DNA of 64,000 nt from Chloroflexota bacterium (GTDB lineage: Bacteria; Chloroflexota; Anaerolineae; Anaerolineales; Anaerolineaceae): contig CP069394.1 in assembly GCA_016887485.1 (NCBI GenBank), forward strand, positions 806,001 to 870,000, written 5' to 3'. Under the pieces are notes generated by a model. That model was not told where the DNA came from. It worked only from the letters and a program-made list of their open reading frames with translations, and did not search any database. The position numbers and the translations under genes are program-made. Of this stretch, positions 10,877 to 41,407 are shown piece after piece. Position 1 is the first letter of the stretch, and every line of letters begins with the position of its first letter.

Positions 10877-13800
10877 ATGCACACAAACGCCAACCATACA
10901 AGGAATGTGTTCATTTCTGTGAAGAAGTTCATCTATACCTCAACCATCATCGTGATGATCTTCTTTACGATGGGTATGGACACATTCAGTCCAAACGCTG
11001 AATACGACCTTCCCACACCTTTTAATGTCACCGCTTCAACGGATCTATCTAATCGAATAAAGATTACTTGGGAGTCCGTCTGTGGAAATGGCTCAGCAGA
11101 TAATTATAGCGTCTATGCAAAAAAGCAAGGAGCTACGTCATTTTCGATTATTGGGAAAGTCCCCTATTATAACTGCTCAAGCGGTGTCCCCACTGAATAC
11201 GATTTTGTGCTAGATGGCATTCTAGATTTCGCTTATCGAGATTATGATTTTAAGGTCAAAACCTGTCCTATTGATCAATATTATTGCGCTAATGATTTCA
11301 GTCCTGTGGCCACTGGTTCAGCTGTGATTGATCCACCTTATATTTCTGCAACCGATGGCACCTATGAAAATAAAATAGAAATCTCCTTCTTTGAGTATTC
11401 TTTCAACTCACAATCTTATAAAGTCTATAGAAGTGCTGATCCTGCAGGCCCCTACACCTTTGTTGGTACTACCACCGGTGACGCCACCTTGGATGGCACA
11501 TATACCGACTACGTTCCGGCTGGAACAACGTATTACTACAAAGGCCAAATCTGTACTTTATTTGATGATTGCAGTCCACTAAGTACCGATTATGCGGTTG
11601 GATACTCATCTTCGGTAGGTCCTTCGGAAATACGTGCGACTGATGGCACCGTAGCCCAATCAATTAATATCACCTGGGACGAAATTCCCGAAGCATGGGG
11701 CTATCGCGTTTACCGTTCTGAAACTTCGACACCACCTGCCGATGTGAACGCCTATCTCCCTCCGGAGGTCTACACTACTAATTTCCAAGATTCTGGTGCA
11801 GATCCATATACCACGTATCATTATTGGATCCGTGCTTATGACATAAATTTCGGTGACTGGACGGATCTCTCCGCATCAGATACAGGGTGGCGAACATACA
11901 AAGCGGCCTACAATGTTACCGCCAGCGATGACACTTCTTATGATCAGATTGATCTGACCTGGGGTAATTATGATGATGCATTTATAAATCAATACATTAT
12001 TTATCGATCCATCGCCCCCTATGGTGAAATAATCAATCTTGGGCATTCTTCAACAACCAGTTACACAGATAATTTGGCCCTTCCTGGGCATACTTATTAT
12101 TATTGGATCAAGTCTTGTGATGAGTTAAATCGTTGCAGCAGTTTGGCGGGCCCGGACGAAGGTATTGCGACTCTGGCATCTGTAGGCAGTGCTGGCACAC
12201 TGACAGCCAGTGACGGTACTAGTACCGACCATGTGCTGCTTGAATGGGATCCCGTATATGGCGCGGATTTCTACAAGCTCTATCGCGGTCAAACCGCGGG
12301 GTCCAGGCCGGCAAACAACTTCACCACATCAACATCACTCACCTATACAGACACCGCGGCAACCCCTGGCATTCAATATTACTATTGGGTTCAAGCCTGC
12401 ACAACTGAAACATGCAGCGCAGCAGATGCCACTGATGGTGGCTATCGCGCCCTTGCGGGGCCTGCAAACGTACAAGCCAGTGATGGCACCGATACTGCCC
12501 AAATTCAGGTCACCTGGGATTCCGTGACCGGTGCGGATTTCTATGAACTCTATTCAGCGCCCACCCTCGGTGGCGTAAAAAGCTTGGTGAGTTCTTCCGT
12601 AGCTGGCACTAACTTCTCCGATTCAAGTATGGGCGAAGGCCAGGCCCTTTATTACTGGGTGAAGGCCTGCACAAGCCTGACCTACAGCGATTTCAGCTCC
12701 CCAGATCTCGGTTGGCGCGGCATCATGCCCCCAGCCAACTTAACCGCATCCGACGGTGAATATGATCAGGTTTCCCTCTCCTGGGATGACAACCCATCGG
12801 CAACCCATTACGCTGTTTATCGGGCTACATCCAACGAAGGCACGAAATCAGTCCTGGCCGCCAACAATGCGACCAATTCCTTCATTGATTCAACCGCAAC
12901 CCCAGGCACAACGTATTACTACTGGGTCAAAACCTTTGTCAATACCTACAGCTCAGATTTTGGTCCATTAGAAACTGGCTGGGCGCGGGGCGGCACGCTT
13001 CCAGTAGTTACAAGCATCACTCGGGTTGACCAGAACCCCACCAATGCCGGGTCTGTTCAATTCCTGATGACCTTCAACAAAGATGTCACTGGCGTCACAA
13101 CCGGTGATTTCGTTATTGATTCTTCCGGCCTGACAGGCGCTGCTATCACAGCTCTTACCGGAGCTGGCAGCACCAGAACTGTCACAGTTTCAACTGGGAC
13201 TGGTTCCGGCACATTGAGCATTGATGTGCAAGATGATAATTCCATTGTCGACGGTATTTCGAATGAGCTTGGTGGCCCAACCATAGGTGACGGTGATTTC
13301 ACCTCCGGTGAAACCTATACCATTGATAAGGAAGCCCCCACACTTTTGTCATTCACCCGCTACTATCCTGTGGAAGAAAACACTAATGCAGACACCCTCG
13401 TTTTCCAGGCTGATTTCAGTCAAGCTGTGATTAATGTAACATCTGATGACTTTGTTGTGAATAGCAACAGCACAGCAATCATCATAAATGTTCAACAAGT
13501 GATTGGTGATATCTACCAGATAACCGTTTCCGGTGGTGACCTGGCCGATTTCAACGGTTCGGTCAGTCTGGACCTTTCGAGCACCCAAAATATCATCGAT
13601 CTCGCTGGTAATGCACTCTCCCAAACAGAGCCTGCCACAGATGAAAGTTATATTGTTGATAATCAAGGCCCAAAAGTAGATTCAATAGTCCGCTCATTAC
13701 CTGTTGAAGAACATACCAACTCTTCGGATTTACAATTCATAATCAACTTCAATTCACCAGTGGAAAATGTTGGAATAGATGATTTCTTAGTGATCGGCGG

Positions 13801-14965
13801 TTCAACTGCTGAAATCCATCATCTATTTCTACATGGTTCAAATATGTTCGTAATTGCCTATGTCGGGTTAGGTGATATTGACACCTTCAACGGAAAAATC
13901 GGTATTGCCCTAAGCGCCAGCACAGATATTACCGATGAATCAGGCAATCCCATCTTATTAGATAATCCAGATATTCACGAATCATACATCCTAGACCACA
14001 TTGGCCCTACATCTATAACAATTGCCGGAGTTGCGCCTGAAGGTACAAAGGTATTTATCACTAAACCAAGCAAGTTGGAAGTCAAATTTGGTGAAGACGT
14101 CAAACATGATGGCAGCTTGGTCGCGGCGGACAATGTAGGCAATTACAGATTATTTTCCGCTGGAGAAAACGGCGTATATGACACAACCAGCTGTCAAACT
14201 GCCAATTCAGCAGAATTAACAATCGGAAACGATGATGTCGCTTATCCAATCGGTCCAATCGCCTATTCCAATGGCGGCGGTTCAGGACCCTTTATAGCCA
14301 CGCTGACAATCAATAATGGCACACCCTTGCCAGTCGGTGAATATCGTCTGATGGTGTGCGGTACAACTTCCATTGAAGATTTGGCAGGCAACGAACTTAA
14401 CGACGGAGAAACCGACTCTTACGCAAACCTCAAAATCGTCATTCCTGAGATACTGCCGGAAACAGGTTTCACCCCAGACGCTCTAACAGAAGTGCCATTT
14501 GCATTCACAGAAAGTGAATACGATCTTTCGACCGGCATTCAACTAGGTATTCCAGCGTTAGGGATCTCCCGAGCTGTCCTCGGCATTCCCGCATCAGGCA
14601 ACGGTTGGAACCTCTCGTGGCTTGGCAATGACCTTGGTTACCTGGCGGGGACAGCCTACCCCACCTTGCCCGGTAACACAGTAATCACCGGACATGCTTA
14701 TAACAATTTTGGCCAGCCGGGACCGCTCTATGACCTGGAGTCTCTCCGCTGGGGCGATCAGATTGTGATCACAGCCAACGGTCAGGAATATGTCTATGAA
14801 GTGCGCAGCGTTTCAGAATACACCAGCCCTAAGGATATCTCCGTGCTTCAACGGCATGAGGCCTACGACTGGGTGACACTGATCACCTGCAACAGTTACG
14901 ACCAAAACGCTGACTCTTTCCTCTTCAGGACCGTTGTCAGAGCAGTACTGGTTGATATCCACTAA
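10877..14965 (+). CDS. Multi-domain secreted surface protein: 7 FnIII-like repeats, Ig-like domains, LPETGF linker and C-terminal sortase domain
   Basis: A 1362-residue protein with an N-terminal hydrophobic export signal at about 13-34. Seven FnIII-like repeats of about 90 residues follow (pattern ASDGT..., W, YR, YYYWV) up to about residue 710. Next come three Ig-like modules (about 712-1050) and an SbsA-like Ig module to about 1190. LPETGF is at 1193-1198. The last 150 residues read as a sortase domain: ITGHAY with His1273, LITCNS with Cys1338 and FLFRTVVRA with Arg1351, the His/Cys/Arg triad of sortases. Sortases are transpeptidases that attach surface proteins, so this chain may anchor itself or act on neighbours such as the cassettes at 20-25 kb. 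It has no C-terminal membrane segment after the domain. The ATG follows AGGAGAGGAATAA. FnIII repeats suggest adhesion or polysaccharide binding. Confidence 0.85.
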   Translation: MHTNANHTRNVFISVKKFIYTSTIIVMIFFTMGMDTFSPNAEYDLPTPFNVTASTDLSNRIKITWESVCGNGSADNYSVYAKKQGATSFSIIGKVPYYNCSSGVPTEYDFVLDGILDFAYRDYDFKVKTCPIDQYYCANDFSPVATGSAVIDPPYISATDGTYENKIEISFFEYSFNSQSYKVYRSADPAGPYTFVGTTTGDATLDGTYTDYVPAGTTYYYKGQICTLFDDCSPLSTDYAVGYSSSVGPSEIRATDGTVAQSINITWDEIPEAWGYRVYRSETSTPPADVNAYLPPEVYTTNFQDSGADPYTTYHYWIRAYDINFGDWTDLSASDTGWRTYKAAYNVTASDDTSYDQIDLTWGNYDDAFINQYIIYRSIAPYGEIINLGHSSTTSYTDNLALPGHTYYYWIKSCDELNRCSSLAGPDEGIATLASVGSAGTLTASDGTSTDHVLLEWDPVYGADFYKLYRGQTAGSRPANNFTTSTSLTYTDTAATPGIQYYYWVQACTTETCSAADATDGGYRALAGPANVQASDGTDTAQIQVTWDSVTGADFYELYSAPTLGGVKSLVSSSVAGTNFSDSSMGEGQALYYWVKACTSLTYSDFSSPDLGWRGIMPPANLTASDGEYDQVSLSWDDNPSATHYAVYRATSNEGTKSVLAANNATNSFIDSTATPGTTYYYWVKTFVNTYSSDFGPLETGWARGGTLPVVTSITRVDQNPTNAGSVQFLMTFNKDVTGVTTGDFVIDSSGLTGAAITALTGAGSTRTVTVSTGTGSGTLSIDVQDDNSIVDGISNELGGPTIGDGDFTSGETYTIDKEAPTLLSFTRYYPVEENTNADTLVFQADFSQAVINVTSDDFVVNSNSTAIIINVQQVIGDIYQITVSGGDLADFNGSVSLDLSSTQNIIDLAGNALSQTEPATDESYIVDNQGPKVDSIVRSLPVEEHTNSSDLQFIINFNSPVENVGIDDFLVIGGSTAEIHHLFLHGSNMFVIAYVGLGDIDTFNGKIGIALSASTDITDESGNPILLDNPDIHESYILDHIGPTSITIAGVAPEGTKVFITKPSKLEVKFGEDVKHDGSLVAADNVGNYRLFSAGENGVYDTTSCQTANSAELTIGNDDVAYPIGPIAYSNGGGSGPFIATLTINNGTPLPVGEYRLMVCGTTSIEDLAGNELNDGETDSYANLKIVIPEILPETGFTPDALTEVPFAFTESEYDLSTGIQLGIPALGISRAVLGIPASGNGWNLSWLGNDLGYLAGTAYPTLPGNTVITGHAYNNFGQPGPLYDLESLRWGDQIVITANGQEYVYEVRSVSEYTSPKDISVLQRHEAYDWVTLITCNSYDQNADSFLFRTVVRAVLVDIH

Positions 14966-19939: not shown

Positions 19940-21694
19940 ATGAAAATCTCGAAGTTTCGTTTCGTAATAATCCTGGCTCTATTGGCAGTGATTAGCATAT
20001 TCGCAGTCCAATCCGCAAAGGCACAAGATATCCAAAATAACAGCGGTGCAATTTGGACGACCGATGGCTCCTGTGGCGACGCATCACAGGATGTTAATCA
20101 TTTCCAAAAAGGTCATTCCGTTTATATCAACGGAGACGGCTTTGATGCCGGTTCTTATGATTGGAAAATAACCGGTAATCCTGGTGGCGCTTCAGCAGAC
20201 CCTGGCATCGTTGTTGCCTCAGGCACCGTTATCGTATACGATTCAGGCTCTTTCTGCTTCAATGCCTATACCATCAAGAACGATGATGGCGGCGAATACA
20301 GCGTCAAGGTTGGTAACAAAGGCGACAACTATCGTGTTGAATATGGCTCCCCCAGCGTTCAGGTAAATGTGAGCGGTGCTTGTTCATGGTCCGAACAGGG
20401 CGGCTCAGTTCGTTCCGTCTCTCTGACCATTGATGGCGCTAGCGTCACAATCCTCAAAGATGGCGGCGGAAGTTATGGTCCGTTCACATCCTCTACAAGC
20501 ATCAATCTGCCAGCCGGCTCTTACACCTATACCTACACAGCTACCATAGGCTTTACTGGCAGCGGAAGAGGCGGTTTTACCGTCACTGAATGTCCCGATG
20601 CCTCCGCATCTGTCACACCCGACGTCTGCCGTTGGGATGACCAAAATCAAGTCTCAATAAATAGCGTTGTACTCACTATCTCCAATGCAGTTGTAACCAT
20701 CTCCGATACCAATGGTGTGGTCGGTGTCTATTCCTCCTCTCAGACAGTAACCCTTCCTGAAGGTTCCTACACTTACACCTGGGTAGCCGCACAAGGCTAT
20801 AAGGGCAGCGGTTCCGGCTCCTTCTCTCTGATTAGTTGTGAACCCGGTAAGGGCGATGTCTCAGTGGATGTGGGCGAATGTAGCTTTGATCAGCAAGAAG
20901 GCTCACTTATCAATGTTGCGTTAACTATTCAGAACGCCACTCTGACCATTGATGGCAAGGATTACACCACCTCCCAGACAATCAAGCTCGCTCCTGGCAC
21001 CTATAACTACTCCTGGACAGCAACAGAAGGCAACACAGGTTCCGGCAGCGGTTCCATCACAGTCTATGGTTGTGAACCCGCATTCGCAGGCGTCGATCTG
21101 GGTGCATGCAGTTGGGATGGTCAGGCTTCATCCACTTCTGCCACCCTCACAGTGACTGGCGCCACCCTGGTTATCAAATCCGGCGAAACCGTATTTGGCA
21201 CCTATGGCCCCGGCACCCACAATGTTTCCTTCCCCGAAGGATCCTACACCTATACCTGGACAGCTAATGAGAACTTCACCGGTTCTGGCTCTGGCTCTTT
21301 CTCCGCTGTAAGTTGTGAACCCGGCAAGGCCGATGCCTCTGTTGATGTTGGTACCTGTGCCTATAATGACGGCCAGTCCCTGACCACCGTCTCCATCTCC
21401 ATCAGCAATGCTGTGTTGAGCATCGATGGCAAAGAATACACTGAAGCCGCTGTTCTCAAGCTCGCTCCCGGTGATTATGCTTATGCTTGGAAGGCCGTAG
21501 ATGATGGCTTCGAGGGCTCAGGTGAAGGCGTTATCACCATTGGGGCTTGCACCCCGAAAACCACCACAGACCCGGATGTCCCCGCTGGTGGCTTAGGCCC
21601 CTCCGTGGTCAACAGCCTGGCCCCCATTCTGGCCGGTGTCGTAGGATTAGGCGTCGCCTCAATCTTCGTCATCAAAGGTAAAAAAGAGAACTAA
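19940..21694 (+). CDS. Secreted five-repeat surface protein with GGLGPS-type C-terminal anchor (cassette 1 putative sortase substrate)
   Basis: A 584-residue exported protein; I do not recognise a named family. A signal peptide covers about residues 1-29 (ends QSAKAQD). An N-terminal domain of about 120 residues (GAIWTTDGSCGD, DVNHF, ITGNPGG, FCFNAYT) is shared with the protein at 22950. Five tandem repeats of about 80 residues follow, each opening with C-x-W or similar and closing with a Cys, with PGSYTYTW and GSGSGSF cores. The end resembles a sorting signal: GGLGPS at 550-555, a hydrophobic stretch at 556-578 and the basic tail KGKKEN. The next gene encodes a sortase-like lipoprotein. AAGGAG precedes the ATG. 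Localisation at the cell surface is inferred, and a simple membrane anchor is the alternative reading. Confidence 0.75.
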   Translation: MKISKFRFVIILALLAVISIFAVQSAKAQDIQNNSGAIWTTDGSCGDASQDVNHFQKGHSVYINGDGFDAGSYDWKITGNPGGASADPGIVVASGTVIVYDSGSFCFNAYTIKNDDGGEYSVKVGNKGDNYRVEYGSPSVQVNVSGACSWSEQGGSVRSVSLTIDGASVTILKDGGGSYGPFTSSTSINLPAGSYTYTYTATIGFTGSGRGGFTVTECPDASASVTPDVCRWDDQNQVSINSVVLTISNAVVTISDTNGVVGVYSSSQTVTLPEGSYTYTWVAAQGYKGSGSGSFSLISCEPGKGDVSVDVGECSFDQQEGSLINVALTIQNATLTIDGKDYTTSQTIKLAPGTYNYSWTATEGNTGSGSGSITVYGCEPAFAGVDLGACSWDGQASSTSATLTVTGATLVIKSGETVFGTYGPGTHNVSFPEGSYTYTWTANENFTGSGSGSFSAVSCEPGKADASVDVGTCAYNDGQSLTTVSISISNAVLSIDGKEYTEAAVLKLAPGDYAYAWKAVDDGFEGSGEGVITIGACTPKTTTDPDVPAGGLGPSVVNSLAPILAGVVGLGVASIFVIKGKKEN

Positions 21695-21728
21695 GCAAGT
21701 CAAACAAATAAACTAAAGCAACCTATAT

Positions 21729-21770
21729 GTACCCGGCTTTCCTATAGTAGACTTTGGGACGGCCGGGTAC
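21729..21770 (+). terminator. Intercistronic hairpin of cassette 1
   Basis: GTACCCGGC (21729-21737) pairs exactly with 21762-21770 around a 24-nt loop. It lies between the surface-protein stop and the sortase-like gene, with TAAAATATAA after the stem and no T run. It may act as a partial terminator, an mRNA 3'-end stabiliser or a translation block. Cassette 2 has a hairpin at the equivalent place. Confidence 0.55.
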
Positions 21771-21784
21771 TAAAATATAACAAG

Positions 21785-22594
21785 ATGAAACGATCAATCC
21801 TTTACCTTTTCTTATTATTAACTTTTCTTCTCGCCGCATGCAGACCGGCAGCGTCTCAAAACGCGCCTATGTATAGCCGAGAAGATCTTGTGGGCTCAAG
21901 CGCAGCAACTGCCACAAGCTCACCACCGGAGAATCAAGCTCCGGCCACAACAGAAGAGGCCACCGCCGCTCCCACCGAGAACGTCATCACCCCTACCCCA
22001 ACCGAGAATCCCTTTGCCACACTCTATGACTGTGACATGAAACTCGAATTTGTTTCAGGGCCACTGGAGTCAAAAACCACAGAATTCAAAGTGTTAGGTC
22101 AGGATTACTTTGTTGAAAAAGAGGATAAATTTGACCCAGGCAAAGGCACGAGTATTTATTACCAATTCCAGCATTATTTCATTTTGCACTCTTCCTATGT
22201 CAATGGAAATGTCTTGCGCCCCATGGAAGCAGAATTCATCCGGAAATATCTCGAATATTGGGGAGAATCGGGGTCGCAATACATTCAGGGGCAAATCGAA
22301 TCTCTGATTGGAACTGAGGTCAATTGGGTTTGTGATGGTCAGGTAATCTTCAACACAAAAATCGATGGCATCACCCGGCTCTCGCACGAAGCCAGCCAGG
22401 ACCTCTGGGTAAACCCTGATAGCCTGGTACAAATTCTGATGAACAAAGAGGGAATTGAATCAGAATGGATTGGTGGAATGCTCCCCACAACAGAGCCACA
22501 TCTCTATGTCGCCTTTTGTGGTTGGGGGCCTGCCTCACTGGATGCAGGCAGATACACATATTTCCGCTATGTACTTAGGTTTATCATCCAATAA
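21785..22594 (+). CDS. Sortase-like lipoprotein of cassette 1
   Basis: A 269-residue lipoprotein: signal peptide with lipobox LLAAC (Cys19), then a Thr/Pro/Glu-rich linker to about residue 78, then a globular domain. I read that domain as a divergent sortase. His135 in FILHSS, Cys245 in AFCGWGP and Arg261 in TYFRYVLRF match the His/Cys/Arg order. SLIGTEVNWVCDGQVIF lines up with SLRWGDQIVITANGQEYVY of the sortase domain at 14.7 kb. Compared with ordinary sortases there is extra sequence: His to Cys is 110 residues here against 65 there. The partner at 24759 keeps all three residues at identical spacing. No ribosome site is seen before the ATG; a hairpin ends 14 bp upstream. Its likely role is processing the surface protein encoded just before it. 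Confidence 0.6.
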   Translation: MKRSILYLFLLLTFLLAACRPAASQNAPMYSREDLVGSSAATATSSPPENQAPATTEEATAAPTENVITPTPTENPFATLYDCDMKLEFVSGPLESKTTEFKVLGQDYFVEKEDKFDPGKGTSIYYQFQHYFILHSSYVNGNVLRPMEAEFIRKYLEYWGESGSQYIQGQIESLIGTEVNWVCDGQVIFNTKIDGITRLSHEASQDLWVNPDSLVQILMNKEGIESEWIGGMLPTTEPHLYVAFCGWGPASLDAGRYTYFRYVLRFIIQ

Positions 22595-22949
22595 TTGCCC
22601 ATATTAATATCCAGATTAATTATCACCAATTCAATTTAATTGTATTTTTATTCGCACTCCCCTATATAATAACAATAATAACCGTCCGATCCCACCAGGG
22701 CACCTCATTTTTAATATTATTTAATTCTTTCGCTAACTATTGCGCATTTTGTTGAATTTTCGCTAATATTTTCACGCGGTTCCATAATTCATATATCCGA
22801 ATCATTACACTGAGATTAATATAGCATTAATCTCTATTGACTATACACTGTCGAAATGTTTATAATATTGTTAAGATTTAGATGAGTCCGTCTAATGTAC
22901 ACCGTTAGATTTCACTAAGTATTGGGATTACTATGCGAGGAGACGCAAA
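22595..22949. other. AT-rich region between the two cassettes
   Basis: About 355 bp with no gene recognised. It contains the cassette 2 promoter candidate and no clear rho-independent terminator for cassette 1. Ribosome site GAGGAG lies just before 22950. Confidence 0.6.
22837..22866 (+). promoter_or_regulatory. Candidate promoter of surface cassette 2
   Basis: TTGACT (22837-22842) and TATAAT (22861-22866), spacer 18 bp, lie 84 bp upstream of the repeat-protein start. It is close to the sigma-70 consensus. Confidence 0.68.
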
Positions 22950-24686
22950 ATGAAATCTGGGAAAATCAAGTTATTGTTTTTAATCAGCACTCTTGTGCTG
23001 GTGATGATCGTCGGAACGACTGCTGTGTTCGCACAGGACGAAGATCGCACACCAGGCAGTGGCGCCATCTGGACCACAGATGGTTCTTGTGGAGATTTAT
23101 CACAAGATGTCAACCATTTCGCTCGCGGTCATCATGTTCATATCAATGGCAGCAACTTTGACCCTGGAGAGTACGAATGGGCCATTACAGGAAATCCCGG
23201 TGGTTCTTCTGCGGACCCGGGTATAGCCGTGGCATCTGGCACCTATACCGTCGGCTCAAGTGGTGCGTTCTGCTTTGACGCATACACTGTTGCAAATGAC
23301 GATGGCGGCGAATACACCGTCGACTTTGGCAGGAAAAACGACAACTATCGCGTTGAGCCTGGCGAAGCTACCGTAAGTATTGGCGTCGCTGGCTGTGCCT
23401 GGACCCCCACTGGTGGTTCAATCCGTGCAGTGAACCTCACGATCAATAATGCCATTCTAACGATTAATGGTGTCGGTGTATTCAGTTCTTCTCAAACAAT
23501 CAACCTCCCGGCGGGTGTTTACACCTATGAATGGGAAGCAGTTAATAAATTCTTTGAAGAAGTAGGTGAAACATCTGGCTCCTTCATCGTGGAAGAGTGT
23601 CCCCCAGCATCAGTTACAGTTGTACCCCAAACCTGTTCTTGGGATGAGCTCGAAGGTTCCTCCACAGACGTGGTTTTGACAATCAGCAACGCAATTCTGA
23701 CGATTGACGGGGTCGGTACATTCACATCGTCTCTTACAATCAACCTGACACCAGGAACTTATAACTACTCCTGGATTGCCAATCCTGGCTACTCAGGCAG
23801 TGGTTCCGGCTCCTTCACGCTTCTTGAGTGTGAGCCCGGCAAAGCCGATGCTGCAGTTGATGTGGGTGGTTGTACTTGGGATGCCCAAAACGGCTCACAA
23901 ATCAACGTCACTCTCACACTCGAAAATGCGATTCTGACCATTGATGGTCAGGACTATAGTACAAGCCAAACCATCAAACTTTCCCCCGGCACCTACCCAT
24001 ATACCTGGGTCGCTGCACCATCCTACACAGGAAGCGGCAGTGGGTCCATCACTATATACGGTTGTGAACCTGCCTCAGTTTCGGTTGAAGTTGGTGCCTG
24101 TGAGTGGAATGGCGAACTATCCATGACACCGGTGTACATCACTGTCAATGGCGCAACTCTCAAGATCTATGAAGGCGCTACACTAGTTCATACATACGGC
24201 CCCGGTTCATATACAATTGATCTGTCAGAAGGATCATACACCTACACCTGGACAGCCAATGAAAACTACACTGGCTCAGGTTCCGGCTCCTTCTCAACAG
24301 TCAACTGTGAGCCCGGCAAATCTGATGCCGCTGTTGAAATTGGCGCATGTGTCTATGCTGATGGACAATCCTGGACAACCGTTGTGATCACCGTCAGCAA
24401 CGCAAGACTGACCATTGACGGCAAAGAATACATCGAAAACGCCGAATTGAAGTTCCTCCCCGGTGACTATCCATATAGCTGGGTAGCCATCAACGATGAC
24501 TTCCAAGGCTCAGGCGAGGGTGTGCTCACAGTTGGGGCCTGCAAACCCAAAGAAGAGCAACCCGATGTTGCAGCTGGTGGTCTTGGGCCATCATTCATCG
24601 CTACTGCTGCCCCAGCCATACTCACCATTTCCGGTCTTGGTTTAGCCTGGGTGCTGATCAAGAACCGCACCAAGAAAACAAACTAA
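22950..24686 (+). CDS. Secreted five-repeat surface protein with GGLGPS-type C-terminal anchor (cassette 2 putative sortase substrate)
   Basis: A 578-residue paralogue of the protein at 19940, alike along its whole length. It has a signal peptide (about residues 1-28, ending AVFAQD), the shared N-terminal domain (GAIWTTDGSCGD, VNHFARGH, ITGNPGGSSADPG), then five Cys-bounded repeats in the same order as the first protein. Repeat 3 of both has the TSQTIKL...SGSITIYGCEP variant. The C-terminus again shows GGLGPS (543-548), a hydrophobic stretch and the basic tail NRTKKTN. It follows GAGGAGACGCAAA. The matching repeat order indicates duplication of the whole gene rather than separate repeat growth. 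The function is unknown; a structural or sheath-like surface role is plausible. Confidence 0.75.
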   Translation: MKSGKIKLLFLISTLVLVMIVGTTAVFAQDEDRTPGSGAIWTTDGSCGDLSQDVNHFARGHHVHINGSNFDPGEYEWAITGNPGGSSADPGIAVASGTYTVGSSGAFCFDAYTVANDDGGEYTVDFGRKNDNYRVEPGEATVSIGVAGCAWTPTGGSIRAVNLTINNAILTINGVGVFSSSQTINLPAGVYTYEWEAVNKFFEEVGETSGSFIVEECPPASVTVVPQTCSWDELEGSSTDVVLTISNAILTIDGVGTFTSSLTINLTPGTYNYSWIANPGYSGSGSGSFTLLECEPGKADAAVDVGGCTWDAQNGSQINVTLTLENAILTIDGQDYSTSQTIKLSPGTYPYTWVAAPSYTGSGSGSITIYGCEPASVSVEVGACEWNGELSMTPVYITVNGATLKIYEGATLVHTYGPGSYTIDLSEGSYTYTWTANENYTGSGSGSFSTVNCEPGKSDAAVEIGACVYADGQSWTTVVITVSNARLTIDGKEYIENAELKFLPGDYPYSWVAINDDFQGSGEGVLTVGACKPKEEQPDVAAGGLGPSFIATAAPAILTISGLGLAWVLIKNRTKKTN

Positions 24687-24704
24687 GCCCGTTGTAGAAT
24701 AACC

Positions 24705-24752
24705 AGACCCGGTGTCACTCCAATCACCAGATTGCCTGACACCGGGTCTTTT
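24705..24752 (+). terminator. Intercistronic terminator-like hairpin of cassette 2
   Basis: AGACCCGGTGTCA (24705-24717) pairs exactly with 24737-24749 (13 bp, 19-nt loop), followed by TTT. It ends about 10 bp before the start codon of the sortase-like gene, so it could lower both read-through and ribosome access. Confidence 0.7.
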
Positions 24753-24758
24753 ACTGTT

Positions 24759-25571
24759 ATGAAACGACTTCGTTCACTCCCATCAATGCTCTCCATCGGC
24801 ATGCTGATATTCAGCCTGCTGACTGGCTGTTCAAAGGAACCGCCGATTTCTTCAGGGTCGAACAGCCAAATTCAAACACCCACGACGATCTCCATCAATG
24901 AAAATGAAGCCCGAGTTACCGTTTCTGATAATGACGAAGTACTCTCAACAACCGCCGAACCCACACCCACAACTCGCCCATTTCCCTATATATATAATTG
25001 CGAAATGCAAATGGATTTTATTTCCGGCCCATTGGAGGGAAAAGGAAACAAATTCACTATCCTGGGTCAAGAATATTTCGATGATAAAGGGGACTTGTTC
25101 TTTCCAGGCGAAAAAACTGCTGTCTTTTATGATGGCCCAAAATACCTGATCCTTCATTCCGCATTTCAAAATGGCAACGTACTCAGGCCCCTTGAAGCCG
25201 AATTCATCCGCCATTACCTCGAATATTGGGGCGAATCAGGCACTGACTATATCCAGGCGAAAATTGACAGCCTGATCGGCTCAGAGATGACATGGACTTG
25301 CAATGGTCAGGTATTATTTAGGACTAAAGTGAAAGAAATCATCCGCCTGTCAGCGGTTGCATCAGAAGAATTATGGCAGGATCCAATTTATCTGCGTCAA
25401 ATCCTGATCCGCCAGGAGGGTCTCGTGTCCGAGTGGGTAGGCGAAATGGATCCCTATTTCATGGATACCTTCTATTTGGGATTTTGCGGTTGGGGGCCGG
25501 AGAGTTCCGGTGATGAGCGCTACACCTATTACCGCTATCTGATCAACTTTGACATGATCTATGATTATTAA
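24759..25571 (+). CDS. Sortase-like lipoprotein of cassette 2
   Basis: A 270-residue lipoprotein paralogous to the one at 21785. The signal peptide ends in LLTGC with a Ser after the Cys, and a Ser/Thr/Pro-rich linker follows. The conserved core shows His133 in LILHSA, NGNVLRP, EAEFIRHYLEYWGESG, SLIGSE, Cys243 in GFCGWGP and Arg259 in YTYYRY. His-Cys (110) and Cys-Arg (16) spacings equal those of the first copy. I chose the ATG at 24759; an in-frame TTG at 24732 lies inside the hairpin stem-loop and has no ribosome site. No clear ribosome site precedes the ATG either. The sortase assignment rests on motif order and local alignment with the recognisable sortase domain at 14.7 kb. Confidence 0.6.
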   Translation: MKRLRSLPSMLSIGMLIFSLLTGCSKEPPISSGSNSQIQTPTTISINENEARVTVSDNDEVLSTTAEPTPTTRPFPYIYNCEMQMDFISGPLEGKGNKFTILGQEYFDDKGDLFFPGEKTAVFYDGPKYLILHSAFQNGNVLRPLEAEFIRHYLEYWGESGTDYIQAKIDSLIGSEMTWTCNGQVLFRTKVKEIIRLSAVASEELWQDPIYLRQILIRQEGLVSEWVGEMDPYFMDTFYLGFCGWGPESSGDERYTYYRYLINFDMIYDY

Positions 25572-30400: not shown

Positions 30401-32383
30401 ATGAAAAAAAAGAGACTCTTTATTTTCCTGAGCATACTCCTCGTCGCGAGCTTCATTCTGACGGCTTGCCAGAGTGCCACCCAGGAACCCCAGCAGGTCG
30501 AGACGGAAGTCGTCGAGACAGAGCCCGCTGAGGTTGAAACCAGTGAGCCTGAAGTAGTTGAGGAACAGGAATTGGATGTCTATCGAATTGCCATGCTGGC
30601 TGATATGACCAGTTCCAATGTCTGGAACCTGTTTGGCCCTGGCGCTTCGACCTATAACTACGTCGTTCAGGCGCAATACTGGCCAACCCTTTATGGTACC
30701 GGCGACCAAAGACTTGACCTGGTACCCTTCTTGGCTGCCGATTTCGCCAGCCCCATCGAGGAAGAAGGCGACTTCTTCGTTTCAACCGTTGTCCTCAAGG
30801 ATAATTTCCTCTGGTCAGATGGTTCCGAGGTCACAGCCGAAGACATTGCTTTCACCGCTCAGGTCATCAAAGATTTCGAACTCGCAGGTAACTGGACCTA
30901 TTATGTGAATAGCGTGGATCATATCGAAGCTATCGATTCAAAGACAGCGAAGATCTACTACGCCATCCGCCCCGGCCTGGCAAACCATGAATATGGCACC
31001 CTTCAGGACCCCATCGTTCAAAAAGCCTATTGGGAACCCGTTTTGGCCGATGCTTATGCCGCAGTCGAAGCAGCTCGAGAGTTTGAAGTTGACAGCGATG
31101 AATATACAGCCGCTATGGCTGAAGCACAACAGATCATCTACAGCGTTCCCGCTGATGGCGAACCTGTGGCTGGCCCCTTCATCTTTGACCAATGGGAAGT
31201 TGGCGCATTTGCTGAGAACTCAGAGAATAGCGACTATTTCTTCAAGGGTACTATGATCGAACTCTACGATGACGGTACCTATCATGAGTATAAAGGTGAC
31301 GAATGGGATTTCACAGCTTATGGTGAAGGTACCGGCAACGTAATTCTCTCCTTTGAAAGTGGTCCCCATGCAAAAGCCGTCGTTTACAGCATCTATAACC
31401 AGGATGCAGCCGTATTAGCCCTCTTGAACGGCGAAGTAGATTATATCTATAACCCCAATGGCTATGGCCCCGGCCTGCGCGCTCAACTGGATGGACATGC
31501 TGATGTTGATGTTGTTGAAAATGCTCGAAATGGCTTCCGTTTCATGGCCTTCAACTTCGAACATGCTCCCATGGATGATATCGCTGTTCGTCAGTCTATC
31601 GCCTGTATGGTTGACCTGGAATTCCTAACCACAAACGTTCTGCAGGGCGCTGCACTCCCCGTCTACACTCCTGTTCCCGTTGGACAGGCCTATTGGTTCA
31701 ACCCGGACGTTCCGATCCTCTGCGAAGGCTACACTGAGCAGGAACGGATGGAATGGGCTGTCAATCGCCTTAGCGAAGCTGGCTATACCTGGGATACCGA
31801 ACCTACTTGGAACACAGATCGTGGCGGCTCCATTGACTGGGGCGTTGGGTTAAAGATGCCTGATGGCGAATATGTTCCCGAATTGACCCTTCTGGCTCCC
31901 TCCGCTGGTTACGACCCCTTGCGGGCAACCGCTGGCGTGCTCATTGAACAGTGGGCTTCCAGTATCGGTTTCCCCGTCCGGGCGCAGTTGACCAACTTCA
32001 ACAACATTCTTAATGAAACCTTAGGTGGCGGTGGCAATTGGGATATGTCCGTAGCTGGCTGGAACTTAAGTCTGTTCCCAGACCATATGTGTGACTTCTT
32101 CCTCTATGAATGGGGTGGTGTTTTTGCCTTCACCGGCTTCACCAGTGACCGCTTATCTGAGCTTTGTGTCGATTTCAAATCAACAAATGATTTGGAACAT
32201 GCCAAGGAAATTGGTTATGAAATGCAGACCATCCTGGCAACTGAGATTCCCTATATGTACCTCTTTGCGAATCCGGTTCAGGATGCCTACAACGTTTCCA
32301 ATGTTGCCTTCCCCTATCTTGAGGTTTTAGGTGGCTTGGAAACCCTGTACGGTTTACAGCTCAACGTTTACTCTGCTGAGTAA
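30401..32383 (+). CDS. Peptide/nickel-type ABC transporter substrate-binding lipoprotein (family 5)
   Basis: A 660-residue extracytoplasmic binding protein of the DppA/OppA family. The signal peptide ends in lipobox LTAC (Cys23), followed by a long Glu/Val/Thr-rich acidic linker to about residue 55. The mature part has the family landmarks WSDGSEVTAEDIAFT near 142, FNFEHAPMDD, and VRQSIACMVD. It is the first gene of a five-gene operon encoding a complete importer. A strong GC hairpin after the stop probably raises its mRNA level over the permease genes. It is somewhat longer than usual for the family. The ligand, a peptide or other oligomer, cannot be told from sequence. Confidence 0.92.
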   Translation: MKKKRLFIFLSILLVASFILTACQSATQEPQQVETEVVETEPAEVETSEPEVVEEQELDVYRIAMLADMTSSNVWNLFGPGASTYNYVVQAQYWPTLYGTGDQRLDLVPFLAADFASPIEEEGDFFVSTVVLKDNFLWSDGSEVTAEDIAFTAQVIKDFELAGNWTYYVNSVDHIEAIDSKTAKIYYAIRPGLANHEYGTLQDPIVQKAYWEPVLADAYAAVEAAREFEVDSDEYTAAMAEAQQIIYSVPADGEPVAGPFIFDQWEVGAFAENSENSDYFFKGTMIELYDDGTYHEYKGDEWDFTAYGEGTGNVILSFESGPHAKAVVYSIYNQDAAVLALLNGEVDYIYNPNGYGPGLRAQLDGHADVDVVENARNGFRFMAFNFEHAPMDDIAVRQSIACMVDLEFLTTNVLQGAALPVYTPVPVGQAYWFNPDVPILCEGYTEQERMEWAVNRLSEAGYTWDTEPTWNTDRGGSIDWGVGLKMPDGEYVPELTLLAPSAGYDPLRATAGVLIEQWASSIGFPVRAQLTNFNNILNETLGGGGNWDMSVAGWNLSLFPDHMCDFFLYEWGGVFAFTGFTSDRLSELCVDFKSTNDLEHAKEIGYEMQTILATEIPYMYLFANPVQDAYNVSNVAFPYLEVLGGLETLYGLQLNVYSAE

Positions 32384-32410
32384 TCGCATCGTCGAATAAT
32401 CAACAACCTT

Positions 32411-32437
32411 CGGGGAGGGGAGCTCTTCCCCTCCCCG
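32411..32437 (+). promoter_or_regulatory. GC-rich intercistronic hairpin between binding protein and permease genes
   Basis: CGGGGAGGGG (32411-32420) pairs exactly with 32428-32437 around a 7-nt loop. No T run follows, so it is more likely an mRNA stabiliser or weak attenuator than a full terminator. Confidence 0.65.
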
Positions 32438-32472
32438 GATTGGTTAATTTCACTTGAAACTGGCAGGCAATC

Positions 32473-33624
32473 ATGAAAAAGTACATTTTCCGCCGTGTTA
32501 TTCAGATCTTATTTACGCTGATCATTTTTCAAACACTGCTTTTTGTGATCCTGGATGCTCAACCAGGAGATATCACAAACCTTTACCTCACAAACCCAAA
32601 AGTCACGCCTGAAATCCGCGATCAAATGCGTGTCATTCTGGGATTGGATAAGCCACCGGTCATCCGGTATTTCCAATGGCTGGGCAATTTCGTCAGAGGC
32701 AATTTAGGCGTGTCCTTCAGTAATTATCCCCGCCCTGTCATGGATATCATCCTGGAACGAGCACCCCGGACATTGGCCCTATTCCTTACCAATCAGATCA
32801 TCTCGTTCCTATTAGGCTATTTCTTGGGCAAACAAATGGCCTGGCACCGGGACACCTTCTTCGAATATGGCATGACAATTGTCGGTGTGATCCTCTTCAC
32901 AATATTCACTCCCTGGTTCGGACTGATGATGATCTATCTATTCGGGATCAAGCTCCAGTTATTGCCCATCGGGAAATTCCTCGATCCAAGTCTGTGGCGC
33001 AATGTTGAAGTGCCCGCCAATACGATCTTTTATTACATGATCCTCACGGCCGTCATCGCTGGTTTGGTCTATGTCGCCATCATCTTGCTCACCCGTAAAA
33101 CCAGCCGGACCCTCCGTCAAGTTATCCAATTCGGTGGTTTCCTCGGTTTGATCGGCCTGGTTGTTCTGGCCTGGAGCCTTACTCCTTATGGCTACCTTGC
33201 TGTGGACATTCTCAAGCACATGATCTTGCCGGTTACGGTTTCCACTTTGGTTTCTTTTGCTGGGACAATGCTCCTGATGCGCAATACAATGCTCGAAACC
33301 TTACGGGAAGACTTCGTCATGGCAGCCAGAGCTAAAGGCCTCTCGGAACACGTCGTGCGGGATAAGCACGCTGCCCGGAATGCTTTCCTGCCGGTCTTCA
33401 CCAACCTCATTATCGGCATCCCCTTTGCCCTGAGCGGTGGGATCATCACCGAGACGATCTTCTCCTGGCCTGGCATGGGGCTGACCCTCTTGCAAGCGGT
33501 CAATCTCGAAGACATCCCTTTGGCGATGGGCACCTTAAGCTTTGTCGGTGTTTTAGCACTCTCAGCTCACCTGATAGCCGATGTCGCCTATGCCTTCCTC
33601 GATCCACGCATTCGATATCAATAG
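32473..33624 (+). CDS. Peptide ABC transporter permease, DppB type
   Basis: A 383-residue inner-membrane permease subunit. The N-terminus FRRVIQILFTLIIFQTLLF and PGDIT are standard for DppB, and the cytoplasmic EAA-type loop includes AARAKGLSEHVVRDKHAARNA. With 383 residues it is longer than most DppB proteins (about 310-340). The extra length lies around residues 165-250 and reads as added membrane segments plus a basic loop (RKTSRTLRQ). It is second in the operon and pairs with the DppC subunit 9 bp downstream. Confidence 0.93.
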   Translation: MKKYIFRRVIQILFTLIIFQTLLFVILDAQPGDITNLYLTNPKVTPEIRDQMRVILGLDKPPVIRYFQWLGNFVRGNLGVSFSNYPRPVMDIILERAPRTLALFLTNQIISFLLGYFLGKQMAWHRDTFFEYGMTIVGVILFTIFTPWFGLMMIYLFGIKLQLLPIGKFLDPSLWRNVEVPANTIFYYMILTAVIAGLVYVAIILLTRKTSRTLRQVIQFGGFLGLIGLVVLAWSLTPYGYLAVDILKHMILPVTVSTLVSFAGTMLLMRNTMLETLREDFVMAARAKGLSEHVVRDKHAARNAFLPVFTNLIIGIPFALSGGIITETIFSWPGMGLTLLQAVNLEDIPLAMGTLSFVGVLALSAHLIADVAYAFLDPRIRYQ

Positions 33625-39991: not shown

Positions 39992-41284
39992 TTACGGCAC
40001 CCAGACAATTTGATATACGGTAATTATTTCATCACTGTCATTGTAGATATAAAAAATGTCGTCTGAGAGGAATAGTGGATCAACTAATCTTTTTTCTAAT
40101 ATTGAAGGATCTAGTTGACCTATCAATTCTTTGATATCCACTTGGCAATGATTTTTTAAAGTCTGATCAACCAGCTCAAATCGTAGAATCGTGTCAGTGT
40201 GAGGTGAAACAAGAGTCATTTCATGAACATTGGGATCGTACTCTAAATACGATACGCTAGAATAGCCTAAGGTACTACTAAATTGAACGGTATAATCCGC
40301 CAACTGTTGAGCATCTTCGAATATTCCTAATTTATTAATCCAATAATCCTCTCCCCCGAAAGAGTTCTTTTCTAAATAACTCGCAGCATATTTATCCCCA
40401 TCAAGCCAGGCAACATGGATATTAAAATTATAATCTCTTGTATTTAGACCGTTCACAGCCTCAATATCATCGCCCTCGTATAGATACACCCCAGTTAAAG
40501 TTCTAAATAAAAACTTCTCTTCTTCACCCAAGGCAGGGCTTATCCAAAATCCATACTCTATCCATAGAGGATCATCAGGCCAATTCACAGTTTTTTTATG
40601 TTCCAATGATGGAATTTCATATATCTCTGCTATGCCTGCTGCCGGATCTGGATCTATTGAATCCCATTTAAGTGGAACGATCAATTTACTCTCATCAGCT
40701 GACCAACCAAGTCCAGAGATCAACCTAACTTCGTTGCTCGTGCTAATAATTTCTAATTGGTCAACGTCAAATAAAGCTGTCTGTTGAGAATTAGTATCTG
40801 TTTGAAATAACAGAAGTAGATATTTTCCTGATGGAGAAACCGAAACCACATATAATGGGTATGGTTTTTCAATTGTAGTAACTGCTGTCCAATTTCCATC
40901 GTTGTCCTTTTCCAGAATTAATATTCTCCCCATTTGATCCGTCACATCATTAAGAACCAAATGATCAATCTCTGTGCTAAGGAAATCTATATCTATATCT
41001 TCTGACTGGATAGTAAACTGTGTCAGATCAATTGTTGATAACGTATTTATCGATACATTGCACTCCGGCAATTCATCCGCCACAATATCAGCATAACTAA
41101 TAAACCGGTCTTCAGGGCTTTCTACAAACATGGTTGGAGTCAGAGTCGAAGTGGCAGAGGGCACCTGTTCAGGTGCTCCTGGCGAGGTTGTTTTCTCCTC
41201 TGAACCGATTACCTGATCACATGAAACGCACAGTAAGACGAAGATTATTGGTAATAATTTTTTCATCAATGTTTGGATTCTCAT
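39992..41284 (-). CDS. Lipoprotein with predicted beta-propeller-like repeats, function unknown
   Basis: A 430-residue lipoprotein: MRIQTLMKKLLPIIFVLLCVSC supplies the signal peptide and lipobox (Cys22), and a Ser/Thr/Pro linker follows. The body has repeated strands of the type SPSGKYLLLLF, GWSADESKLIVPLKW, FWISPALGEEEKFLFRT and AWLDGDKYAASYL. These resemble WD40/TolB-like blades, so a beta-propeller is likely. I chose the ATG at 41284 because GGGGAG lies 7 nt upstream; an earlier in-frame ATG at 41335 has none. It is the last of three minus-strand genes from 42.7 kb. I do not recognise a specific family. Confidence 0.7.
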   Translation of the reverse strand: MRIQTLMKKLLPIIFVLLCVSCDQVIGSEEKTTSPGAPEQVPSATSTLTPTMFVESPEDRFISYADIVADELPECNVSINTLSTIDLTQFTIQSEDIDIDFLSTEIDHLVLNDVTDQMGRILILEKDNDGNWTAVTTIEKPYPLYVVSVSPSGKYLLLLFQTDTNSQQTALFDVDQLEIISTSNEVRLISGLGWSADESKLIVPLKWDSIDPDPAAGIAEIYEIPSLEHKKTVNWPDDPLWIEYGFWISPALGEEEKFLFRTLTGVYLYEGDDIEAVNGLNTRDYNFNIHVAWLDGDKYAASYLEKNSFGGEDYWINKLGIFEDAQQLADYTVQFSSTLGYSSVSYLEYDPNVHEMTLVSPHTDTILRFELVDQTLKNHCQVDIKELIGQLDPSILEKRLVDPLFLSDDIFYIYNDSDEIITVYQIVWVP

Positions 41285-41407
41285 TTTGTGACTCCCCGGC
41301 GTTATCAGCTCATTTATCTTTATGATTGACATCATTTCGGTTCATAGTATTAGACCGAATTCCAATGAATGACCCTCAATCTGTCCTATGCCACCTTAGT
41401 TTGAGGA

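Follow-up and report, generated by a model that had tools for sequence, protein, structure and literature searches.

Tandem gene pairs of a Brevefilum genome couple an AGGxGP-tailed exported protein with a lipoprotein of predicted sortase fold: a candidate dedicated sorting system

The 64-kb window of contig CP069394.1, which is the whole stretch of DNA analysed here, comes from a 2.9-Mb genome of Brevefilum (Anaerolineaceae, Chloroflexota), a genus from digesters. On its forward strand lie two tandem cassettes, in each of which a gene for an exported protein (the partner) is followed by a gene for a lipoprotein (called the enzyme after its proposed role). We suggest that the lipoprotein is probably a dedicated, lipid-tethered and very divergent sortase with a non-LPXTG signal, so that each cassette would form one sorting system. 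Direct computation gives the two paired genes, the tail of the partner, the residues that are conserved, the fold as predicted, the recurrence of the pair in other genomes and a hairpin between the two genes. The first-pass annotation had described cassettes of an exported five-repeat protein and a lipoprotein, and all four open reading frames (ORFs), the repeats and the lipoboxes are present. The four genes are as follows.

19940..21694, + strand: partner 1 (putative substrate), with an N-terminal domain, five repeats and a sorting-type C-terminal tail
21785..22594, + strand: enzyme 1, predicted sortase-fold lipoprotein
22950..24686, + strand: partner 2 (putative substrate), architecture as in partner 1
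24759..25571, + strand: enzyme 2, predicted sortase-fold lipoprotein, inside a TTG-started ORF at 24732-25571

Eight distinct enzyme genes were found, namely the two in the window and one each at loci L025, L026, L027, L028, L029 and L030 (L025, L027, L028, L029 and L030 are the same loci as L007, L009, L010, L008 and L011, respectively). A scan of genome contigs gave six loci, of which five had already been found by the genome search and one, L026, was new. The enzymes of L028 and L030 are 90% identical. In all eight cases the enzyme gene stands directly after the gene of an AGGxGP-tailed partner. Eight related genomes, seven others of the same genus and G056, were compared; five of them have exactly one tail and one enzyme, and three (G072, G082 and G090, 92-98% complete) have neither. 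Among 396 genomes of the class, the tail (expectation value E ≤ 1e-10) and the enzyme (E ≤ 1e-100) occur in the same four. The proposal that the lipoproteins serve the neighbouring proteins gains support from adjacency in eight of eight cases, from a shared tail on differing ectodomains and from joint presence and absence. The enzyme seems to be dedicated to one partner, and we use 'dedicated system' as the term is used in PMC3237569. The first-pass annotation had proposed a search for the paired genes across Chloroflexota. Such pairs do exist, but in the samples searched they are not spread across the phylum: all homologues come from Brevefilum or from one near Anaerolineaceae genome.

Partners 1 and 2, of 584 and 578 residues, are 58% identical, and both have a hydrophobic N-terminus and a hydrophobic C-terminal stretch. 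Each contains five repeats of about 74-83 residues with a conserved Cys pair. A hidden Markov model (HMM) of the repeat, which was built from these same ten repeats, gives five matches in each window partner with independent E-values (i-E) ≤ 4.5e-31. The repeats and the C-terminal signals lie at the following positions.

20357..21553, + strand: five repeats of partner 1
21566..21691, + strand: C-terminal signal of partner 1, PDVPAGGLGPS, hydrophobic stretch and KGKKEN, with AGGLGP at 21584-21601
23370..24545, + strand: five repeats of partner 2
24555..24683, + strand: C-terminal signal of partner 2, PDVAAGGLGPS, hydrophobic stretch and basic tail, with AGGLGP at 24573-24590
Candidate segment for cleavage by the enzyme in the partner tail: PDVPAGGLGPSVV

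All eight partners have D-x-x-AGG[LSA]GP 36-40 residues before the C-terminus, then a hydrophobic stretch, and three to four basic residues among the last ten. This is the layout of a sortase substrate in every case, with AGGxGP rather than LPXTG. The six partners of the relatives have PT-rich linkers and a differing N-terminal region (that of L030 is truncated by the contig end). Matches of the repeat HMM to these proteins are all short and weak (best i-E 0.017, best whole-sequence E 0.0076), and the membrane-proximal modules of the window partners and of these proteins may be remotely akin. GlyGly-CTERM proteins are described in PMC3237569 as usually alike only in such a C-terminal region. 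In the window's own genome, the DNA pattern for AGGxGP occurs at 14 sites, versus 15 for a reversed control; two of the 14 are C-terminal tails with a hydrophobic stretch and a basic end, and both belong to the window partners. A further site, L072, lies 34 residues before the stop of a long frame, and it was not counted because it has an acidic end and no long hydrophobic stretch. The LPXTG_anchor model TIGR01167 weakly matches two of the eight tails (best E 0.053). The one such match shown has 14.2 bits, versus a cut-off of 15.9, and covers profile positions 10-33 of 34; with scores below the cut-off and no LPXTG motif, the tails are not members of this family. MYXO-CTERM gives a chance-level match in one of the eight tails (E 0.8).

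Enzymes 1 and 2 have 269 and 270 residues, made up of a lipobox (LAAC and LTGC, respectively), a linker and then a domain some 197 residues long, which is 54% identical between the two. A lipobox is present in seven of the eight enzymes and a hydrophobic N-terminus in all eight, which predicts tethering on the extracytoplasmic side of the membrane. Outside the N-terminus, no hydrophobic stretch is found in any of the eight (best 19-residue mean 0.52-0.89). Apart from the putative active-site Cys, the only Cys residues of the domain in row 1 of the alignment, C83 (22031-22033) and C183 (22331-22333) of enzyme 1, are invariant in all eight sequences and may form a disulphide.

Template-free AlphaFold2 models of both domains were built on an alignment of eight sequences with an effective number of sequences (Neff) of 1.9; the same eight rows were used for both models. 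Confidence is given as the predicted local distance difference test (pLDDT) and the predicted template modelling score (pTM).

21839-21841, + strand: lipobox Cys19 of enzyme 1
22001..22591, + strand: predicted sortase-fold domain of enzyme 1, model me6e12edbba54, pLDDT 80.2, pTM 0.81
24969..25568, + strand: predicted sortase-fold domain of enzyme 2, model ma8ec68b0a152, pLDDT 72.5, pTM 0.76

The order of elements is nearly the same in the two models, with two extra short strands in copy 2 and one missing. When the model of copy 1 was compared with the PDB by Foldseek, ranks 1-9 were all sortases (E 1.1e-4 to 0.091, probability 0.63-1.00), and the top non-sortase fold among the best 50 of 358 matches had a probability of 0.07. 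For copy 2, ranks 1-12 were all sortases (E 7.2e-4 to 0.21, probability 0.14-1.00), and the top non-sortase fold among the best 50 of 293 matches had a probability of 0.05. A second aligner, VIA, run on Foldseek's own match list, placed sortases in 50 of the 50 listed rows for each copy. Its best match is 4y4q for both, with Z = 7.9 and a root-mean-square deviation (rmsd) of 4.0 over 140 aligned residues for copy 1, and Z = 7.3 and rmsd 4.3 over 144 residues for copy 2. L,D-transpeptidases and other cysteine-enzyme folds are absent from the fold matches listed. The fold check proposed by the first-pass annotation for 21785-22594 and 24759-25571 thus came out in favour of a sortase beta-barrel in the predicted models of both copies, and it is the purity of the sortase match lists in the two models that carries weight. 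By prediction the lipoprotein domain is a sortase-fold relative; it fits the sequence definition of no named class.

Class B rows lead the matches of both models. Rows of classes A, B, C and E differ from one another by no more than about 1-2 in Z, too little to single out one class for the predicted sortase. In both models two helices, 129-137 and 139-148, lie between the strand 114-126 and the strand that carries Cys. Class B sortases have helices inserted ahead of their Cys strand. The enlarged region between His and Cys, one of the traits that the first-pass annotation could assign to no named family, may thus have a counterpart in class B.

The His, Cys and Arg residues proposed as the catalytic triad are at the positions given by the first-pass annotation and occupy the same alignment columns in both copies.

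22187-22189, + strand: H135 of enzyme 1
22517-22519, + strand: C245 of enzyme 1
22565-22567, + strand: R261 of enzyme 1
25155-25157, + strand: H133 of enzyme 2
25485-25487, + strand: C243 of enzyme 2
25533-25535, + strand: R259 of enzyme 2

All three are invariant in the eight distinct homologues, so that no homologue lacking one of them was found, and the proposed catalytic His is the only invariant one among the four His of row 1. In model numbering, H63 closes the strand 59-63 and C173 stands at the end of the strand 167-174; R189 belongs to the last strand, 187-196. The register of the Arg was counted back from the last aligned pairs, on the assumption that the last strand is gapless. Of the 39 entries that appear in the lists of both models, 38 have the same PDB residue opposite R189 with either model. 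In S. coelicolor SrtE1 (5cuw) R189 falls on residue 329 (337 minus 8, 340 minus 11), which we take to be the catalytic Arg of that enzyme. In S. pyogenes SrtA, the counterpart of R189 is residue 216 in all 10 rows of model 1 and in five of the six of model 2; the sixth row, a loop chimera, gives residue 217. The catalytic triad of S. pyogenes SrtA is given in PMC9520033 as His142, Cys208 and Arg216. In S. aureus SrtA, R189 falls on residue 197 in three of three crystal entries with both models, and Arg197 is named in the title of a reference within PMC9520033. Counted in this way, R261 and R259 take the place of the catalytic Arg in SrtA of S. pyogenes and S. aureus.

Enzyme 1 is closer to the L025 enzyme (63% identity) than to enzyme 2 (54%). 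In the tree, the longest end branch is that of enzyme 2 (1.53 changes per column), whose placement is unsure. Copy 2 keeps the triad despite this branch, and its partner keeps AGGxGP. The two window partners have the five-repeat architecture in common. Probably the whole cassette was duplicated and copy 2 then changed fast, to judge from these sequences.

How might such a cassette work? Once exported, the partner would stay in the membrane through the hydrophobic stretch and basic tail at its C-terminus, and the lipoprotein would be tethered to that membrane on its outer face. Brevefilum fermentans CAMBI-1 is described in PMC5481317 as inferred to be monoderm, without fimbriae or pili. If the window species is also monoderm, the lipoprotein would be on the outer face of its only membrane, where sortases must act. 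The enzyme would recognise the AGGxGP region next to the membrane, and its Cys, assisted by His and Arg, would attack this region, with cleavage presumably within or beside the motif. The partner would then be passed to an acceptor in the wall or close to the membrane, and this putative covalent anchoring would result in surface display.

Several observations weigh against this mechanism. None of the eight enzyme domains matches any Pfam or NCBIfam model at E ≤ 10, including PF04203, and they belong neither to PF04203 nor to an NCBIfam sortase class; in full-length enzyme 1, two NCBIfam models weakly match the signal and linker, the stronger match having 18.9 bits versus a cut-off of 190. There is no sortase among the PDB sequence matches of the enzyme domain. 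Comparison of the enzymes by hhalign with three sortases of the same genome gave nothing, nor did comparison with 16 Chloroflexota sortases together with these three (the 16 come from the 30 best-scoring loci, which gave 17 ORFs, of which L139 was removed as an unrelated frame). Because hhalign found nothing, the alignment of short motifs with the sortase domain at 14.7 kb in the first-pass annotation is left without statistical support; we dropped the argument from sequence alignment and used the predicted fold instead. The kinship of the lipoprotein domain to sortases is visible only at the level of the predicted fold. Furthermore, LPXTG is absent from all eight partner tails, and their motif contains no Thr-Gly bond; at L026 the partner tail is AGGSGPG instead of AGGxGPS. 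The sortase signature TLxTC is replaced by [YF][LV][AGS]FC in all eight enzymes, so that the Thr or Ser before Cys is missing. This signature can vary, as in the ILLSC of F. alocis (PMC13257024). Since 65 of the 197 domain columns are invariant, the invariance of the triad alone is weak evidence. The lipoprotein nature proposed by the first-pass annotation holds for the seven homologues with a lipobox but not for the L026 enzyme (1091-1921), which keeps the hydrophobic N-terminus and lacks the lipobox Cys; this suggests that the membrane tether, rather than the lipid itself, is what matters. The five genomes with both tail and enzyme also supplied rows of the search profiles, and within one narrow lineage the co-occurrence represents few independent events. 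The models have weak points as well. They share their eight rows and are not fully independent, and in both the pLDDT is below 50 in the stretches that follow His (66-74) and Cys (about 175-186). For the best sortase matches in Foldseek, template modelling scores (TM-scores) are 0.29-0.52 and rmsd is 6.3-12.2, and VIA Z values are below 8 throughout, which can mean merely a common arrangement. The best Foldseek entry, 3psq, is the exception to the Arg register, with residue 229 in one model and 231 in the other.

Taken together, the last points raise the question of whether the sortase fold was mis-predicted from a thin alignment, in which case the lipoprotein would be an unrelated beta-rich partner protein. 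Eight close sequences with so low a Neff, TM-scores of at most 0.52, Z values that stay under 8 and the lack of sequence-level support for a sortase all speak for this. However, the models are template-free, the two lead sequences are 54% identical and yield nearly the same element order, other folds are far lower in Foldseek probability, and the Arg register agrees in all shared entries except one. We consider a mis-predicted fold highly improbable. The missing TLxTC signature might mean instead that the protein has the fold and is catalytically dead, holding or chaperoning its partner at the membrane. This is very unlikely, considering that His, Cys and Arg are kept in eight of eight sequences, also in copy 2 on the longest branch, and that no His of row 1 other than that of the triad is invariant.

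An active enzyme need not be an anchoring one. A sortase-fold cysteine protease could cut the partner tail and release the partner by shedding; the fold, the pairing and the tail are equally compatible with it, and the missing Thr or Ser before Cys may mean that the transfer chemistry differs. Sortases can hydrolyse as a side reaction. No sequence feature that we saw points to release, though, and partnership with a conserved membrane tail is the usual mark of sorting systems as described in PMC3237569, so that we regard shedding as unlikely. Tandem-repeat partners in two cassettes side by side could also suggest a pilin-type, class C-like polymerase that links the repeat proteins into fibres. 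The relatives, however, have a single partner with only short weak repeat-HMM matches, the five related genomes that have the system contain a single tail each, and the enzyme lacks the C-terminal membrane segment that PMC13257024 describes as a class C feature; a polymerase therefore has very little to recommend it.

The reading as a dedicated, lipid-tethered sortase may be taken one step further. We consider it an even chance that the enzymes represent an additional class of sortase, distinct from A-F and from the Gram-negative class, that is tethered by lipid rather than by a helix, has Phe before the Cys, reads a D-x-x-A-G-G-x-G-P signal without Thr-Gly, and works strictly with one enzyme per substrate, cassette duplication having given two separate pairs. 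If the reading is true, sortases extend beyond detection by the sequence models applied here, and a sortase can be lipid-attached, read a non-LPXTG signal and do without Thr before Cys. Most current ligation tools use LPXTG-like tags; a pair of one enzyme and one substrate with a glycine-rich tag might be a candidate for an orthogonal protein-ligation tool. It would also give a concrete handle on the surface proteins of Brevefilum.

Among known systems, class B sortases (S. pyogenes Spy0129, 3psq; S. pneumoniae, 4y4q; C. perfringens, 5yfk; S. aureus, 1ng5/4lfd) stand at the head of the structural match lists for the two models; they have helices inserted before the Cys strand, and both models show helices ahead of theirs. 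Class B sortases often have a dedicated substrate nearby. By contrast, the listed rows have 3-10% identity to the lipoproteins, which have no PF04203 or NCBIfam match and no TLxTC, and carry a lipobox (seven of eight) instead of a membrane helix; the partner motif is AGGxGP instead of the (N/S/P)PXTG given in PMC13257024. Class C sortases have a C-terminal membrane helix, which the lipoproteins do not. The cassettes of the Gram-negative sortase TIGR03784 likewise consist of one enzyme and one adjacent target (PMC3237569), whereas our enzyme matches neither TIGR03784 nor any other NCBIfam model and its putative target is without LPXTG. The LPXTG anchor TIGR01167 has the same layout of motif, hydrophobic stretch and basic tail as the partners, but the match shown starts after the motif, and AGGxGP stands in place of LPXTG. 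GlyGly-CTERM with rhombosortase and MYXO-CTERM with myxosortase also combine a short motif, a hydrophobic stretch, a basic tail and a cognate enzyme. Those enzymes are described as intramembrane proteases (PMC3237569; PMC11980579), whereas here a soluble sortase-fold domain is predicted. A literature search on sortases in Chloroflexi/Anaerolineae and on lipid-anchored sortases, which left subscription journals mostly uncovered, listed no paper that describes such a system in its title or at the start of its abstract; where the phrase 'lipoprotein sortase' occurs in PMC1586193, it refers to Gram-positive sortases in general.

The three Pfam sortases of the window's own genome (PF04203, 68.9-77.8 bits) have no detectable sequence relation to the lipoproteins. 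They lie at the C-terminus of very long frames of 1362, 2587 and 1609 residues (window 10877-14965, L061 and L062, respectively), and in each frame an LPxTGF motif closely precedes the sortase domain. As read from these frames, self-processing or a fused substrate is possible. Pfam sortases occur in 53 of the 60 class genomes sampled, and in every one of the 16 usable Chloroflexota sortase ORFs the domain is preceded by a hydrophobic stretch and by no lipobox.

Candidates beyond the eight cassettes were rejected. The first family-level search gave matches in 18 of 101 genomes at E ≤ 0.001, with a full-length protein in six; in the other 12 the matches were mostly to signal and linker, and the inspected loci L012, L021 and L023 were other proteins. 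Alignment A1, which included the signal and linker, matched in 34 of the 396 genomes, 30 of them at N-terminal profile positions only, and the domain-only alignment A3 was used instead. The six extra genomes of A3 (E 0.015-0.037) had partial matches, and the five of these six loci that were inspected, L080-L084, were other proteins. Tail matches were obtained in 52 further class genomes (E 0.0017-0.093), and the six loci inspected had no C-terminal AGGxGP tail. A scan of IMG/VR found no relatives.

Downstream of the cassette, all six relatives (L025-L030) have an ATP-binding cassette (ABC) exporter pair and a gene for a deoxythymidine diphosphate (dTDP)-sugar epimerase, and the four relative loci that reach far enough have further dTDP-rhamnose genes; the Pfam assignment of these downstream genes was run on L028 only. 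The window cassettes are without an adjacent exporter, and the nearest exporter homologue of that genome is 32% identical and about 1 Mb away. The link to polysaccharide was counted as neighbourhood and not as part of the system. Upstream lies a divergent phosphoglycerate-mutase gene in all five genomes whose contig reaches that far. In G072, which has neither tail nor enzyme, this gene stands by ATP synthase genes instead, and G082 and G090 have no match to it at E ≤ 1e-50. Elsewhere in the window, an ORF of 447 codons at 39992-41335 on the reverse strand has no Pfam match at E ≤ 0.001.

A hairpin lies in the gap between partner and enzyme genes in all eight cassettes, with a 10-17 bp stem and a z-score (z) of -3.8 to -7.1 versus shuffles. 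The two in the window are as follows.

21729..21770, + strand: terminator-like hairpin between partner 1 and enzyme 1, 10-bp stem, z -4.8
24705..24749, + strand: terminator-like hairpin between partner 2 and enzyme 2, 13-bp stem, z -6.4, then TTT

From partner stop to enzyme start there are 72-93 bases in the eight cassettes (for the aligned start, the nearest ATG is 9 bases further on in L027 and 15 in L029). The hairpin sequences differ among cassettes, except in L028 and L030. A stem score of at least 10 was obtained for seven of the eight cassette gaps and, among control gaps of the same loci, for 9 of 11 convergent, 0 of 14 divergent and 6 of 30 other co-directional ones. The gene calls for this control were simple and ORF-based, and alternative starts caused two cassette gaps to be missed and a third to be cut short. 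The cassette hairpins look like ordinary terminators of this group, judged by their sequence. Their likely effect is more substrate than enzyme, and in the proposed mechanism such a hairpin would keep enzyme expression below that of the substrate. A strong GC-rich hairpin with a 14-bp stem is also found at 32384-32472 of the window, placed, as in the cassettes, between two genes: that at 30401-32383, by eye a solute-binding protein, and that starting at 32473, by eye its permease.

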